The translations under genes and the position numbers were made by a program. DNA of 64,000 nt, taken from contig JAZKBK010000001.1 in assembly GCA_040388625.1 (NCBI GenBank), positions 496,001-560,000 on the forward strand, written 5' to 3'. The stretch is from Gemmatimonadota bacterium (lineage in GTDB: Bacteria > Gemmatimonadota > Gemmatimonadetes > Gemmatimonadales > Gemmatimonadaceae). Numbering within the stretch: position 1 is the stretch's first letter; every line of letters starts with the position of its first letter. A model generated the notes under the pieces. The model was not told the origin of the DNA and searched no databases. It saw only the letters and a program-made list of their open reading frames with translations. Shown piece after piece: positions 35,952-42,361 of the stretch.

Positions 35952-37726
35952 GCGTTCATCCGAACGACATTGCCCGCCGCTCACGCGTAGCGAAGGCCGG
36001 GCTCGCTGTGGTCATCCTTTCGTTGATGGGCGCGTTCTTCAACGCACAGGTGCTCCAGCACGACCGCTACAAGCTGCAGTCGCAGGAGAATCGTCTCCGC
36101 GCGCTGCCATTGGCTGCGCCGCGAGGCATCATCTACGACAGGTTCGGCAACATCATCGCCGAGAACCTGCCGGGCTACGCCGTGTCGATTGCACCGGTGA
36201 ACACCGACTCGCTCAAGTCATCGCTGCAACATCTTTCGAGCGTCATATCGCTCTCTCCGGACCAGATCGACGCTGCATTGCGGCGCTACCGACGTGATCC
36301 CAATCGTCCGACGCTGATAATGTCGGACGCATCGATGAGCGTGGTGTCCGTGCTCGAGGAGCATCGCATCAACTTCCCGCGCCTCATCATTCAGTCGGTA
36401 CCCAAGCGGTTCTATCCCGACGGACCCGCCGTTGCGTCGTTCGTCGGCTACACCGGCGAAGTCACGGATGCGGATCTCAATTCGCCGGCGTACGAGGGGT
36501 ACAAGCCGGGCCAGCTCGTCGGCAAGGGCGGCATCGAGAAGGAATACGAAAAGGTTCTGCGCGGGCGCGAGGGTGTCCGTTATGACGAAGTCGATGCGCG
36601 CGGACGCCAGGTGCGTCAGGCAACGCCGCGACTCGATCTCAATCCGGAACCCGGCCCGGCACTCCATACCAACATCGACCTCGATCTCCAGCGGTACGTC
36701 GCGGCGGTGTTCGGCGATTCGTTGGTAGGCGGTGCGATCGCGCTGGATCCGCGCGATGGCGGCGTGCTTGCGTTGTACAGCGCGCCAAGCTATGACGTCA
36801 ACAAGTTCACCGGCGGCATACCGGCCGACTACTGGAAGGGATTGCTGGCTGACGATCGCCGCCCGCTCGTGAACAAGGTGACTCAGGGCCGTTATCCTCC
36901 AGGCTCGACATTCAAGCTCGCCACTGCCGTCACCGGTCTGGAAGACGGACTCGTGACGCTGGATGAGCACATGCCGGTACCGTGCACCGGTGGTTTTCAG
37001 TACGGCAACAGGTACTTCAAGTGCTGGGACAAGAAAGGCCACGGCAGCATATCGCTGGCTCGCGCGATCGAGGTGTCGTGCGACGTGTACTTCTACCAGC
37101 TCGGGCTGAAGATCGGGCTGTCGCGCATGATCGCGGGCGGCATATCGCTCGGACTGCGCGACAAGAGCGGTATCGATCTCCCGGATGAGAAGCGAGCGCT
37201 GTGGCCGTACGCGGTGGACTACTACAACAAGACGTACGGCGCGCGTGGCTGGAGCAATGCCGTGACGCTCAACCTTTCAATTGGCCAGGGCGAGAATTCG
37301 CAGACTGTCGTGAACATGGCGAAGTTCTACGCCGCGCTCGCGACAGACGGCAAGGCGCCGACGCCCGAGATCGTGAAGCGCGCTCCGGTCAGAACGCAGA
37401 TATTCAAACTCGATCAACAACAGATGGACGGGCTTCGCACGGCGCTCGCCGGCGTCATCGGCCAGGGAACAGCGCAGTCGGCGCGCATTCAGGGAATAAT
37501 GCTCGCGGGCAAGACGGGAACCGCTCAGACCGGCAAGCGAGTCAACGGCGTCGAGCTCAACCACGCGTGGTTCGTGGGTTTCGCACCAGCCGACAAGCCC
37601 ACGATCGTCGTCGCGGTTATGCTCGAATATGGCGGACACGGTGGCCGCGCAGCTCACGTCGCTTCCTCCATCATAGCGCACTATCTCAAGGTCGCACCTG
37701 TGACAGCCGTACAGTCTGAGGGTTGA
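35948..37726 (+). CDS. mrdA: penicillin-binding protein 2 (elongasome transpeptidase)
   Basis: 592 aa class B PBP, membrane-anchored by a single N-terminal helix (AGLAVVILSLMGAFFNAQVL) with a periplasmic pedestal and transpeptidase domain. The nucleophile is S320 in PPGSTFK (SxxK); the second motif reads SCD, an SxD form as in E. coli PBP2, and the third motif is KTGTAQTGK. GTG 35948 overlaps the mreD stop; the longer upstream frame is a shadow within mreD. The stop overlaps rodA (TGATG). Confidence 0.95.
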   Translation: MSVHPNDIARRSRVAKAGLAVVILSLMGAFFNAQVLQHDRYKLQSQENRLRALPLAAPRGIIYDRFGNIIAENLPGYAVSIAPVNTDSLKSSLQHLSSVISLSPDQIDAALRRYRRDPNRPTLIMSDASMSVVSVLEEHRINFPRLIIQSVPKRFYPDGPAVASFVGYTGEVTDADLNSPAYEGYKPGQLVGKGGIEKEYEKVLRGREGVRYDEVDARGRQVRQATPRLDLNPEPGPALHTNIDLDLQRYVAAVFGDSLVGGAIALDPRDGGVLALYSAPSYDVNKFTGGIPADYWKGLLADDRRPLVNKVTQGRYPPGSTFKLATAVTGLEDGLVTLDEHMPVPCTGGFQYGNRYFKCWDKKGHGSISLARAIEVSCDVYFYQLGLKIGLSRMIAGGISLGLRDKSGIDLPDEKRALWPYAVDYYNKTYGARGWSNAVTLNLSIGQGENSQTVVNMAKFYAALATDGKAPTPEIVKRAPVRTQIFKLDQQQMDGLRTALAGVIGQGTAQSARIQGIMLAGKTGTAQTGKRVNGVELNHAWFVGFAPADKPTIVVAVMLEYGGHGGRAAHVASSIIAHYLKVAPVTAVQSEG

Positions 37727-38973
37727 TGTTCAGAAATACACTCACCGACTATCCGCTGGCTGCGACGGCGATTGCACTTTCGCTCTTCGGTGTTGCGATC
37801 GTGTATTCCGCTGGACAGACGGACATACCGACTTACGTCGCTCCGCTCTGGAAATCGCAACTGATGTGGCTGTGCCTGGGCGTACTGTGCGCATGGGGCA
37901 TCGGCAACTCGTCGGTAAGACTGATCGAGTGGGTCACGTGGCCGGCATATCTGCTCACCCTGTTCACGCTCGCGTCACTGCTCGTGCTCGGCACGGGAAC
38001 GGGCGCCAATGGTCACATGCGTAGCTGGCTGGCGATCGGTGGTCATCGGCTGGGTCAACCAGCCGAGCTTGCGAAGATCATCGTCGTGCTGATGCTTGCG
38101 AAGGTGCTTGCAGAGCGAAGAGAGGCGCCCAAGTCACTGCTGGAGTTATGGAAGCCGGGACTCGTTGTCGGCGTGCCGTTCGCCATGATCATGCTGCAAC
38201 CCGACCTCGGCTCGGCGATCGTATTCGTCGGAATCTTTTTCGGAATGTTGTTCTGGTCCGGTGTACCGTGGCCCTTGCTGGTACTGCTGGCGAGTCCCGT
38301 AGTGAGCCTCGTGCTGTCGTTCAGTACGGGATTGTGGGGCGCGTGGTTCCTCGTGCTGATCGCGCTCGTGCTGTGGTACAAACCGTATCTGCTCGAAGGG
38401 ATAGTGCTCGTCGTCGCGAATGTCGTGACTGGCGTCATCGCGCCCATACTATGGGAAAAACTCGCGCCTTATCAGCAGAACCGGCTCAAGGTGTTTCTGG
38501 ATCCGTCGGCCGATCCGCGCGCTTCAGGCTATCACGTTCTGCAATCGAAGATCGCGATCGGATCGGGCGGCCTGCTCGGTAACGGGTTCACGCTCGGCAC
38601 CCAGAAACGAAGCGGCTTCCTTCCCGAGCAGCACACCGACTTCATTTTCGCGGTGGTGGGTGAGGAGCTGGGGTTCATCGGAGTCGCGCTGGCGCTGGCG
38701 CTGTTCCTGGCTCTCCTGCTTCGCGCGACGCGGATCGCATCGCGCGCCAACGATTCCTTCGGCAGCCTCGCCGCGTTCGGGCTCATGTCGTGCTGGCTCG
38801 TGCACGTCGTCGTCAACATCGGGATGACGCTCAACCTCATGCCGATTACCGGAATCCCGTTGCCGTTCTTCAGCTACGGCGGCTCGTTCATGCTGGCGAG
38901 CTGGCTGGGTGTCGGGGTGTTGCTGCGTATTTCCGGCGAGGGCAGGGGGCGCGCCGGGGCGCTGCTGTCGTAG
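37726..38973 (+). CDS. rodA: SEDS-family peptidoglycan glycosyltransferase RodA
   Basis: 415 aa polytopic membrane protein (about ten helices) that polymerises glycan strands with PBP2. SEDS features: ANGHMRSWLAIGGHRLGQPAELAKI, the large periplasmic loop ending GFLPEQHTDFIFAVVGEELGF, and MPITGIPLPFFSYGGSFMLASW. ATG 37726 overlaps the mrdA stop by one base; TTG 37723 is in frame but unnecessary. Last gene of the rod-shape operon; 72 bases later the RAYT/REP element begins. Confidence 0.95.
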   Translation: MFRNTLTDYPLAATAIALSLFGVAIVYSAGQTDIPTYVAPLWKSQLMWLCLGVLCAWGIGNSSVRLIEWVTWPAYLLTLFTLASLLVLGTGTGANGHMRSWLAIGGHRLGQPAELAKIIVVLMLAKVLAERREAPKSLLELWKPGLVVGVPFAMIMLQPDLGSAIVFVGIFFGMLFWSGVPWPLLVLLASPVVSLVLSFSTGLWGAWFLVLIALVLWYKPYLLEGIVLVVANVVTGVIAPILWEKLAPYQQNRLKVFLDPSADPRASGYHVLQSKIAIGSGGLLGNGFTLGTQKRSGFLPEQHTDFIFAVVGEELGFIGVALALALFLALLLRATRIASRANDSFGSLAAFGLMSCWLVHVVVNIGMTLNLMPITGIPLPFFSYGGSFMLASWLGVGVLLRISGEGRGRAGALLS

Positions 38974-39060
38974 ACAGGGAACCGCCGAAATTCGTTGTCG
39001 TCGGTGGCCGGGGCTCCTCGGAACTGCCGGAACCGAAACCAGGTTCGATTGCGGTCTTAT

Positions 39061-39103
39061 GGGCCAGGCGCGGAAGGATCCGCGCCCTACGCGTGCGTAC
39101 CAA
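39061..39103 (+). repeat. left inverted end of the RAYT/REP element
   Basis: 43 bp identical to the reverse complement of 39665-39707. It holds the palindrome at 39067-39086 followed by CTAC (GTAG on the minus strand). The stop codon and last four codons of the RAYT gene (39087-39101) lie inside this arm. Confidence 0.85.
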
Positions 39104-39590
39104 ATGTGCGCGATGGCCCGGCGTTAATGGCGCGCCACGCGCGCGACGGGTTTGCCGCGATGTATTTGCGGACTCTGTCCAACGCATCGGTATTGCGGAT
39201 AATGCGATCGTGAAAGCTGCGCTGCCAGATCGGCGCGCGCGGCTTCGCCGCGTCTGCATGAATTGCGAGCGATGTTCGTCGTTTCGTCCAGCCGACCACG
39301 TGGCTCAGGCTCGCTGTGCGCCTGGGCGTGCGAAGGAGCACAACTATCGCGTGGACATGGTCGGGCATCACCACGAACCGATCGATCAGCACGCCGTCAA
39401 ATCGTGCTGGCACCATCAGCCAGCAGCGATGAACGGTGTTCCCAGTCTGCGTGAGTACAATTCCGTGCCGCGTCGGCGTGCCTAGTATCTGACTTCGTCC
39501 GTGTGTGATGGTGGTCACGAAGTACACGCCGGGCTGCATATAGTCGTACGATCGCCAGCGCGGATGCGTGCGCGAGTAGAATTTCTGCAT
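39087..39590 (-). CDS. REP-associated tyrosine transposase (RAYT, Y1_Tnp family)
   Basis: 167 aa single-strand DNA endonuclease of the IS200/IS605-related RAYT group, thought to act on REP hairpins. Motifs: YDYMQPGVYFVTTITHGR at the start, the metal-binding HUH pair H78-V-H80 in VVMPDHVHAIVVL, and WQRSFHDRIIRN followed by RKYIAANP with candidate catalytic Y143. ATG 39590 matches the family N-terminus; the frame stays open upstream to 39719, into the right REP arm, so a longer form cannot be excluded. It appears intact. The C-terminal GTHA and stop are encoded by the REP arm. Confidence 0.87.
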   Translation of the reverse strand: MQKFYSRTHPRWRSYDYMQPGVYFVTTITHGRSQILGTPTRHGIVLTQTGNTVHRCWLMVPARFDGVLIDRFVVMPDHVHAIVVLLRTPRRTASLSHVVGWTKRRTSLAIHADAAKPRAPIWQRSFHDRIIRNTDALDRVRKYIAANPSRAWRAINAGPSRTFGTHA

Positions 39591-39919
39591 GAACCAATCA
39601 TGCCGTGGATAACGAATCGTGGCCGAAGCGATCGTCCACCGCCATGTCCACAACGACGCGCCGGTTGGTACGCACGCGTAGGGCGCGGATCCTTCCGCGC
39701 CTGGCCCCATTAACCGCAATCGGATTCGGATGAACGCAACGACAACCCAGTCGCACGACGCGCCTAGCCTCTTTACGCGTCATCGAAGCAGGATTCGGTT
39801 CCTTAATCCCGACACGGTGCGTCTCTAATCCCGACCAGAATCCAATTCGATTTCGTTGATTCAGACGTACCCACCGCCCCGTCGCTCGAACTAATCCACG
39901 CCGGGAACAGCTTCAATCA
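39591..39919. other. gene-free stretch with the right REP arm (39665-39707)
   Basis: 329 bases between the RAYT start and the 3' end of the E1 gene. It contains the right inverted end of the RAYT/REP element (39665-39707) with GTAG at 39678-39681 leading its palindrome. Beyond 39722 only a near-direct repeat (TAATCCCGAC, twice, near 39806 and 39828) was noticed; no coding signal was seen. Confidence 0.6.
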
Positions 39920-42361
39920 TCACACGCCCAGCGCTGGAAACCTCGCGACGTTCGTCTCGCGCACGATCTCGTACACGGCGTCGAATACGGTCTCGACGTT
40001 GGGCTTGGACCAGTAATCGCCGTCGCGCCCGTATGCGGCGCGATGCGCTGCAGCCGCGAGCGTACGCGGAGCCGCGTCGAGCCAGTAGAATCCGCCCTGC
40101 CGCTCCAGCACTTCCTGCATCATGTACGCAGTCGCGCCGCCCGGAACGTCCTCGTCAAGGAACAGCACCTTGTTCGTCTTCTTGAGTGATTCGACGATCA
40201 CACCATTGACGTCGAACGGCAACAGCGATTGCACGTCGATCACTTCGACGTTCACGCCAGCGTTGTCCTGAAGCAGACGCGCAGCATCCAGCGCGATCTT
40301 GCAGCACGCGCCGTACGTCACGACGGTTACGTCAGAACCCTCGCGCAGGATCTCGGGAACGCCCAGAGGCATGGTGAAGGTTCCGATGTTGGAGGGAAGC
40401 TTCTCCTTGACCCGATAGGCGTTGAGAACTTCGACCACGATCGCGGGATCATCGCTCTGCAGCAGAGTGTTGTAGAAACCCGCCGCGCGCGTCATGTCAC
40501 GTGGAACGAGGATGTGCATGCCGCGGAGTGCTCCAAGCATCATCCCCATCGGAGAACCGGAGTGCCACACACCCACGAGCCGGTGACCGCGCGTGCGCAC
40601 TATCACCGGTGCCTTCTGACCGCCGCGCGTACGGTAACGCAGCGTCGCCAGATCGTCCGACATCACCTGAAGTGCGTACAGCAGATAGTCGAGGTACTGG
40701 ATCTCTGCGATCGGCCGCAGGCCGCGCATGGCCATGCCTATCGCCTGACCGATGATCGTGCACTCGCGAATCCCCGTGTCTCCCACACGCAGCTCGCCGT
40801 AGCGAGCCTGCAGATCGACAAAGCCCTGATTCACGTCGCCAAGCTTGCCGACGTCCTCGCCGAACGCGATGACACGAGGGTCGCGTTTGAGCGCTGCGTC
40901 GAAGCAGGCGTTGAGCACCATGTAGCCATCGACGTCGGGTGCATCGTCCGGATAGTTCGGCGCTTCCACTTTCACGGCCATCGCTGATTCGGTCGATTCC
41001 GAATACAGCTCGGCGTGATAGCGGTCGTTCATGAGAGCTTCCTGCGCGCGCTTCCACTGGATCAGTGGCTCTGCAAGCGACGGCGTATCGCGCAAGGCGA
41101 CGATCGCTTCGTGTGCTGCGGCCGCGATCTCGCGTCGCAACGGTGTGGAGCGAGCGGCAAGATCCTTCGCAATCGTGGCGAGTGTCGTGGCAGTCGCGTC
41201 GGCTGCGTTCGCTGCGGCTGCCGTTACCAGAGCTTGCAGCTCTTCCTTCTCCGCGTTGATCGGCGCCTGATACGCCCGCCACGCCTCATCACGTCCCGCG
41301 CGCGCCTGATCCATCGCACGCTCCTGCAGCGCATCCATCTCAGCCGCGGTCGCGATCTTCTCCTTGATGATCCACTCGCGAAAGCGCGCGATGCCGTCGT
41401 GATCCTTCTCCCACTTGAGCCGCTCCGGTGACTTGTAGCGCTCATGGCTGCCCGAGGTCGAGTGGCCATGCGGCTGTGTCATCTCGATGACGTGAACGAC
41501 AGCGGGGACGTGGCCGCGGCGGACGATGTTGGCCGTGCGCTGAAAGGTCTCGACGAGCGCCGGATAATCCCAGCCGCGAACGACCTCGAGCTCGAACCCG
41601 TTCTTCTCGGATGTTCGCTTGAACCCCTGCAGCAACTCGGAAATGCTCCCCTTGGTAACCTGCATGTCGTTGGGAACCGAGATGCCGTACCAGTCGTCCC
41701 ATACGGACAGAAGCATGGGGACCTGCAACACACCCGCGGCGTTCACGGCTTCCCAGAATACACCCTCCGCGCACGACGCATTGCCGATGGTGCCGAATGC
41801 GATCTCATTGCCGTTGTGCGAGAACTGGGTGAACTGGTGCAGCTCCTTCAGGTTGCGATACAGCTTGGACGCGTACGCGAGTCCGAGGAGGCGAGGCATC
41901 TGCGAGCCGGTGGGTGAGCTGTCAGCGGATGACTGGTACTGCTCAGTTAGGTTCTTCCACCGCCCCTGGTCGTCGAGCATGCGTGTGCCGAAGTGCGCAT
42001 TCATGCCGCGGCCACCCGATGCCGGATCGGCGGAGATGTCGGCGTGCGCGTAGAGCTGCGCGAAGAACTGTTGAACCGTCAGCAGGCCCAGTGCGAACAT
42101 CAGCGTCTGATCGCGATAGTAACCCGACCGGATGTCACCCGGCTCGAAGGACTTGGCCAGCGCGACCTGCGCGACTTCCTTTCCATCGCCGAAGATTCCG
42201 AACATCGCCCTGCCAAGCATCACTTCGCCGCGAGCCAGCGTGCTTACCTGGCGGCTCGTGTACGCGATTTCGTAATCCCTCAGTACGCCGGCGCGATCTG
42301 CCTTATCGGCTTTCACAGCCCTGGTCGCGATCGCCGCGCCGCCATCTTTGCCTTTGCTCAA
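39920..42361 (-). CDS. fused alpha/beta E1 component of a branched-chain-type 2-oxoacid dehydrogenase
   Basis: 813 aa thiamine-diphosphate enzyme in which the alpha chain (residues ~25-390) and beta chain (~475-813) are one polypeptide, as in Bacteroidetes-type alpha-ketoacid dehydrogenases. The TPP-binding region reads FGTIGNASCAEGVFWEAVNAAGVLQVP...WDDWYGIS. The beta half has VIAFGEDVGKLGDVNQGF and EIQYLDYLLYALQ. It decarboxylates a branched-chain 2-oxo acid or pyruvate and passes the acyl group to an E2 lipoyl protein. No E2, E3 or lipoylation gene is in the window. The start is TTG at 42361. Confidence 0.9.
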   Translation of the reverse strand: MSKGKDGGAAIATRAVKADKADRAGVLRDYEIAYTSRQVSTLARGEVMLGRAMFGIFGDGKEVAQVALAKSFEPGDIRSGYYRDQTLMFALGLLTVQQFFAQLYAHADISADPASGGRGMNAHFGTRMLDDQGRWKNLTEQYQSSADSSPTGSQMPRLLGLAYASKLYRNLKELHQFTQFSHNGNEIAFGTIGNASCAEGVFWEAVNAAGVLQVPMLLSVWDDWYGISVPNDMQVTKGSISELLQGFKRTSEKNGFELEVVRGWDYPALVETFQRTANIVRRGHVPAVVHVIEMTQPHGHSTSGSHERYKSPERLKWEKDHDGIARFREWIIKEKIATAAEMDALQERAMDQARAGRDEAWRAYQAPINAEKEELQALVTAAAANAADATATTLATIAKDLAARSTPLRREIAAAAHEAIVALRDTPSLAEPLIQWKRAQEALMNDRYHAELYSESTESAMAVKVEAPNYPDDAPDVDGYMVLNACFDAALKRDPRVIAFGEDVGKLGDVNQGFVDLQARYGELRVGDTGIRECTIIGQAIGMAMRGLRPIAEIQYLDYLLYALQVMSDDLATLRYRTRGGQKAPVIVRTRGHRLVGVWHSGSPMGMMLGALRGMHILVPRDMTRAAGFYNTLLQSDDPAIVVEVLNAYRVKEKLPSNIGTFTMPLGVPEILREGSDVTVVTYGACCKIALDAARLLQDNAGVNVEVIDVQSLLPFDVNGVIVESLKKTNKVLFLDEDVPGGATAYMMQEVLERQGGFYWLDAAPRTLAAAAHRAAYGRDGDYWSKPNVETVFDAVYEIVRETNVARFPALGV

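Follow-up and report, generated by a model that had tools for sequence, protein, structure and literature searches.

The window (the whole stretch of 64,000 nt that was analysed) carries between a rodA-type gene and an E1 gene a unit that is very probably a REPtron, i.e., a RAYT gene between inverted cognate REPs, and that was probably gained before the split of the window's own genome (G000) and its sister species (G002), stayed at the site, and became flipped, with RAYT and REPs switched. The unit belongs to a known kind, found here in Gemmatimonadota, a group not listed in the REP surveys consulted and for which our literature search, incomplete in coverage, found no description of RAYTs. 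Most unusual is the observation that REPs at fixed positions swap the tetraloop type between species as blocks. The components of the locus are as follows (basis in parentheses).

37723..38973, plus strand: rodA/ftsW-type gene, left neighbour (ORF list, Pfam)
39046..39103, minus strand: left arm, a REP (GTAG and hairpin with loop TCCT) with outward tail (arm alignment, folding)
39067..39090, minus strand: REP core GTAGGGCGCGGATCCTTCCGCGCC in the left arm; its TAG (39089-39087) serves as stop codon of RAYT
39087..39590, minus strand: RAYT (TnpA-REP) gene, 167 aa, with HxH H78/H80, catalytic Tyr143 and RAYT-type Thr26 (homologue alignment, profiles, fold)
39665..39722, plus strand: right arm, an inverted copy of the left-arm REP, 5' of RAYT (arm alignment, folding)
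39678..39701, plus strand: REP core GTAGGGCGCGGATCCTTCCGCGCC in the right arm (genome-wide pattern search)
39723..39800, plus strand: worn copies of a ~60-bp REP tail unit, which forms tandem repeats at the same place in G002 (comparison with G002)
39920..42361, minus strand: 2-oxoacid dehydrogenase E1 fusion gene, right neighbour (ORF list, Pfam)

The original prediction of an intact RAYT gene between 43-bp perfect inverted repeats was confirmed, the perfect 43-nt core (GGGCCAGGCGCGGAAGGATCCGCGCCCTACGCGTGCGTACCAA) lying inside arms that are 91% complementary over 58 nt, and the match claimed for the outermost sequence was also found (CGATTGCGGT). Each arm carries the GTAG hairpin previously described, composed of GTAG followed by an 8-bp stem with a tetraloop, GGCGCGGA-TCCT-TCCGCGCC, and the REP 24-mer shows a folding energy of -11.5 kcal/mol (z -5.45). 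The GTAG-hairpin REPs on the two flanks of RAYT are inverted to each other, as in a REPtron, with the tags pointing inwards, so that on each strand only one REP stands in the cleavable orientation. As was also claimed, the last four codons and the stop codon of RAYT (GGT ACG CAC GCG TAG) lie within one arm, the left one, where the TAG stop is at the same time the TAG of GTAG. The same arrangement is present in 4/4 intact RAYT units of the genus (besides the window, the G002 copy L080 and the G000 loci L071 and L073) and, outside the genus, in Clostridia (L085, L086), Ruminococcus (L094) and a Fibrobacterota locus (L141); among 14 homologues having a detectable downstream tagged hairpin, the stop falls exactly in the tag in 8. 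The location of REPs immediately behind the stop codon was already noted by Nunvar et al. 2010 (PMC2817692). The reading frame is indeed uninterrupted upstream to 39719, across the right (5') arm, but its part over this arm is probably non-coding, since the alignment of 4/4 genus homologues starts from the ATG at 39590.

The identity of the window gene as a RAYT with flanking REP is supported by the profile, Pfam and predicted-fold matches. The product matched Pfam Y1_Tnp, and scored 76 bits (E 2.7e-21) with NCBIfam REP_Tyr_transpos (NF047646), just under the 80-bit cut-off, and 23 bits with the IS200/IS605 profile NF033573, below the threshold of 55. After alignment with nine relatives, H78, H80, Y143, T26, N147 and P148 turned out to be invariant, in agreement with the HxH and Tyr of a Y1 HuH transposase and with the RAYT-specific Thr close to the N-terminus and NP motif behind Tyr; the motif after Tyr is NPSRAW, and the full NP(L/V)(R/K)xG is absent. 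A single-protein sequence search against solved structures gave no match, whereas the fold predicted by AlphaFold2 (pLDDT 84.7) matched best to 4er8, the RAYT-REP complex (E 2e-7), followed by the ISDra2 and IS608 transposases.

Using the 24-nt REP pattern with up to 3 mismatches, 58 sites were detected in the whole genome of G000 (3.84 Mb; both G000 and G002 are draft assemblies) and none with the reversed pattern, a result far from chance. The related REPs are dispersed over the genome and sort into tetraloop types, but the exact TCCT type occurs outside the window unit only twice (C5:233279 and 233688), so that amplification by the window RAYT appears slight. G000 contains three RAYT units, all intact, each between inward-tagged REPs of a single loop type (TCCT in the window, TGCA on C6 and TTTA on C5); an internal stop once suspected in the C6 RAYT was rejected because it lies solely in the upstream stretch of the frame, which is non-coding. 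Compared with the window RAYT, the C5 and C6 RAYTs show 62-67% identity (dS 1.4-1.7). No second copy of the window unit and no other RAYT above 67% aa identity was found in G000, and near-identical unit copies were absent from every genome searched; self-amplification of the window unit was dropped for lack of such close copies.

The unit resembles the REPtrons of Stenotrophomonas, Pseudomonas and Marinomonas (group 3) in its Y1 HuH enzyme, the perfect palindromes with GTAG tags that stand inverted on either side, the arm at the stop codon, the presence of more than one RAYT, every one with a REP type of its own, the scattered REPs, the fast RAYT evolution and the REP switch at the same locus. 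It differs from them in the final motif, in that the sister species carry their copies at one site but on opposite strands, and in the tandem ~60-bp tail units that turn the locus into a long nested palindrome. With the IS200/IS605 elements IS608 and ISDra2 it has in common the enzyme fold, active site and hairpin ends, but its ends are inverted with the tags inwards, in contrast to two same-orientation hairpins on one strand, and it carries the GTAG tag and lacks multiple copies; neither near-identical copies nor demonstrated transposition, by which a self-mobile IS200/IS605 element is recognized, was found in G000. Like REPINs/BIMEs, G000 also has head-to-head REP pairs of one type with the tags outwards, which differ in being 211-490 bp apart and, in the one pair read fully (C5:233279-233711), in the inverted tail repeats in between. 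Both members carry the same loop type in 9/9 inverted pairs of G000 (1.3 expected by shuffling) and 5/7 of G002 (1.06 expected). The outward-tagged pairs of G000 fit the REPIN arrangement of outward tags forming a hairpin, whereas the RAYT arms face the opposite way.

At the rodA/E1 site of G002 (L080, record DAHUXM010000021), where the neighbours show 97-99.5% aa identity to G000, a RAYT 73% identical to the window copy lies on the opposite strand, between TTCT REPs and flanked on either side by 60-bp tail units in tandem; nucleotide identity at the site is 77% over 715 bp. In the more distant congener G001, rodA and E1 are ~150 bp apart with no insert and no REP, and in G003 no RAYT was found in the 435 bp beyond E1 up to the contig end; the polarity of the gain is read from this one insert-free congener and this contig end. 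The original prediction held that mobility would be unlikely if all relatives carried the same gene at the same place and the genome had no other arms; in fact the site is empty in G001, the RAYT is inverted in G002, and related REPs exist. Downstream of E1 in G003 (L248:1-435) a different repeat, GTGGATTCCCGCGTTCGCGGGAATGACGA, was observed, similar units of which stand near some REPs of G000 and G002.

Between the window RAYT and the G002 RAYT, dN (0.20) is well below dS (0.76), the latter exceeding the neighbour-gene values (0.16-0.36) two- to fivefold. The two rodA/E1 RAYTs are sisters in the tree (support 95/93), which points to one ancestral unit, flipped and switched. Judging from the sequence comparison, the difference between G000 and G002 is most likely an in-place inversion together with the known 'orthoswitch', the REP-type switch at a RAYT locus described by Nunvar 2013 (PMC3686654). 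The unit would have been gained between rodA and E1 before the G000/G002 split, whatever the mode of its first arrival, and kept in place since; the gene would then have been flipped in one of the two lineages, most simply via recombination of one inverted arm with the other, and the two REPs would have changed along with RAYT, in whichever direction, giving TCCT in G000 and TTCT in G002. As to the activity of the protein, a RAYT dimer would bind single-stranded REP hairpins carrying GTAG and the TCCT tetraloop, Tyr143 would cut beside the hairpin with subsequent rejoining of strands, and this action may spread or exchange REPs elsewhere in the genome.

The raised RAYT dS could instead reflect replacement by a different RAYT: the ancestral RAYT might have been exchanged in G002, or alternatively in G000, via recombination with an unsampled relative, so that the two would not be orthologues by descent. 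The difference in REP type and strand agrees with this reading, but RAYTs at a shared locus are known to evolve fast, and in-place REP change is likewise documented (PMC2817692), and the copies are sisters in the tree; we consider replacement rather unlikely.

Still less probable is the self-mobile transposon of the original prediction, by which RAYT moves its own gene with the arms; the rodA/E1 units of G000 and G002 would then be separate insertions into a hot spot. In favour of this reading, the junction is empty in G001, and the opposite strands and high dS at rodA/E1 agree with separate arrivals, as do three units at three sites. The C6 unit site is also empty in G001 and G003, and the C5 unit (L073, G000 C5:130387-131022), a REP-RAYT-REP with a perfect 133-nt inverted repeat in its arms, is exactly absent in G002 (L168, C7), where the flanks, 94.5% identical, join at ATCGG, a 5-bp sequence common to both ends of the unit; in G001 and G003 these flanks lie on different contigs. 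The G002 allele retains, however, TTTA half-hairpins matching the outer repeats of the unit, as deletion of a palindrome would leave, and together with the 133-nt palindrome arms this makes deletion across the palindrome at least as likely as insertion. Against self-mobility also stand the lack of near-identical copies, the rodA/E1 copies being mutual closest relatives, and the inward tags, while in E. coli the TnpA-REP enzyme cleaves REP and leaves iREP uncut (PMC8266576); the REP literature states that evidence for TnpA-REP mobility is lacking. With no recent duplicate copies, self-transposition of the window unit is at best possible, and a unit long resident at the site, inverted and rapidly diverged, fits the rodA/E1 copy better than recent jumping, given the position common to G000 and the sister species.

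That the G002 inversion is an artefact of short-read assembly through inverted arms is very improbable, for although G002 contigs C31 and C33 break in another such palindrome, the longest perfect arms (84 nt in G002, 43 nt in the window) are shorter than the k=141 given in the contig name. Both of these contigs (L174 end, L177 start) end in one inverted 60-bp repeat array, indicating that assembly did not pass through the palindrome of the C6 RAYT site.

Switching of the tetraloop extends to scattered REPs. The loop differs at 19 of the 33 aligned REP positions common to G000 and G002, where bases differ by 28% in the loop, 6.9% in the flanks and 0.8% in stem and tag, the last figure being biased low because the search pattern restricts stem changes. 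All three variable bases had changed in 6 loops versus 1.4 expected (P 0.0003; 32 of the 33 positions, since two REPs had been assigned to one site). One pair was clearly swapped in both its members (C1:634643/635025, L057), being TTTA/TTTA in G000 and TTCT/TTCT in G002 (L185, C16:5984/6210). TTCT, the type of the only intact RAYT of the clade found in G002, occurs at 8/18 differing sites in G002 against 2/18 in G000 (P 0.06). Same-position REPs with different tetraloops were noted in 28 locus pairs of G000 and G002, often with replacement of the whole loop.

For group 3 TnpA-REP, recognition is loop-specific and loop bases are critical, including the TTTA loop in Marinomonas (PMC8266576). We tentatively suggest, without regarding it as probable, that RAYTs overwrite REPs in place, swapping types at fixed positions, pairwise and with their own arms included; the same loop changes might also arise by ordinary gene conversion or by REPs inserting themselves into old ones. 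RAYT genes are held in the field to be stationary, and the REP-type switch at a RAYT locus to be without known mechanism; in-place overwriting, if true, would supply the mechanism that the 'orthoswitch' still lacks. The sister genomes of this genus differ by one inverted and switched RAYT site, by a second unit with exact presence in one and absence in the other, and by dispersed REPs that are retyped but unmoved, so that both RAYT stationarity and the switch mechanism become testable by close-strain comparison.

The G001 RAYT (L063, C22:58150-58542) is without its C-terminal part and 3' REP, and its flanks map, inverted, to two G000 places ~22 kb apart (C6:562528 and C6:584955); being truncated and at a rearrangement, it is no clean orthologue. 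In both G000 and G002, a REP site lies next to the place of this rearrangement. A longer RAYT-like frame of about 300 aa in G000 (L076/L078, C6:288043-288906) contains two separated RAYT-matching parts, and has a relative in G002 (L075/L079, C23).
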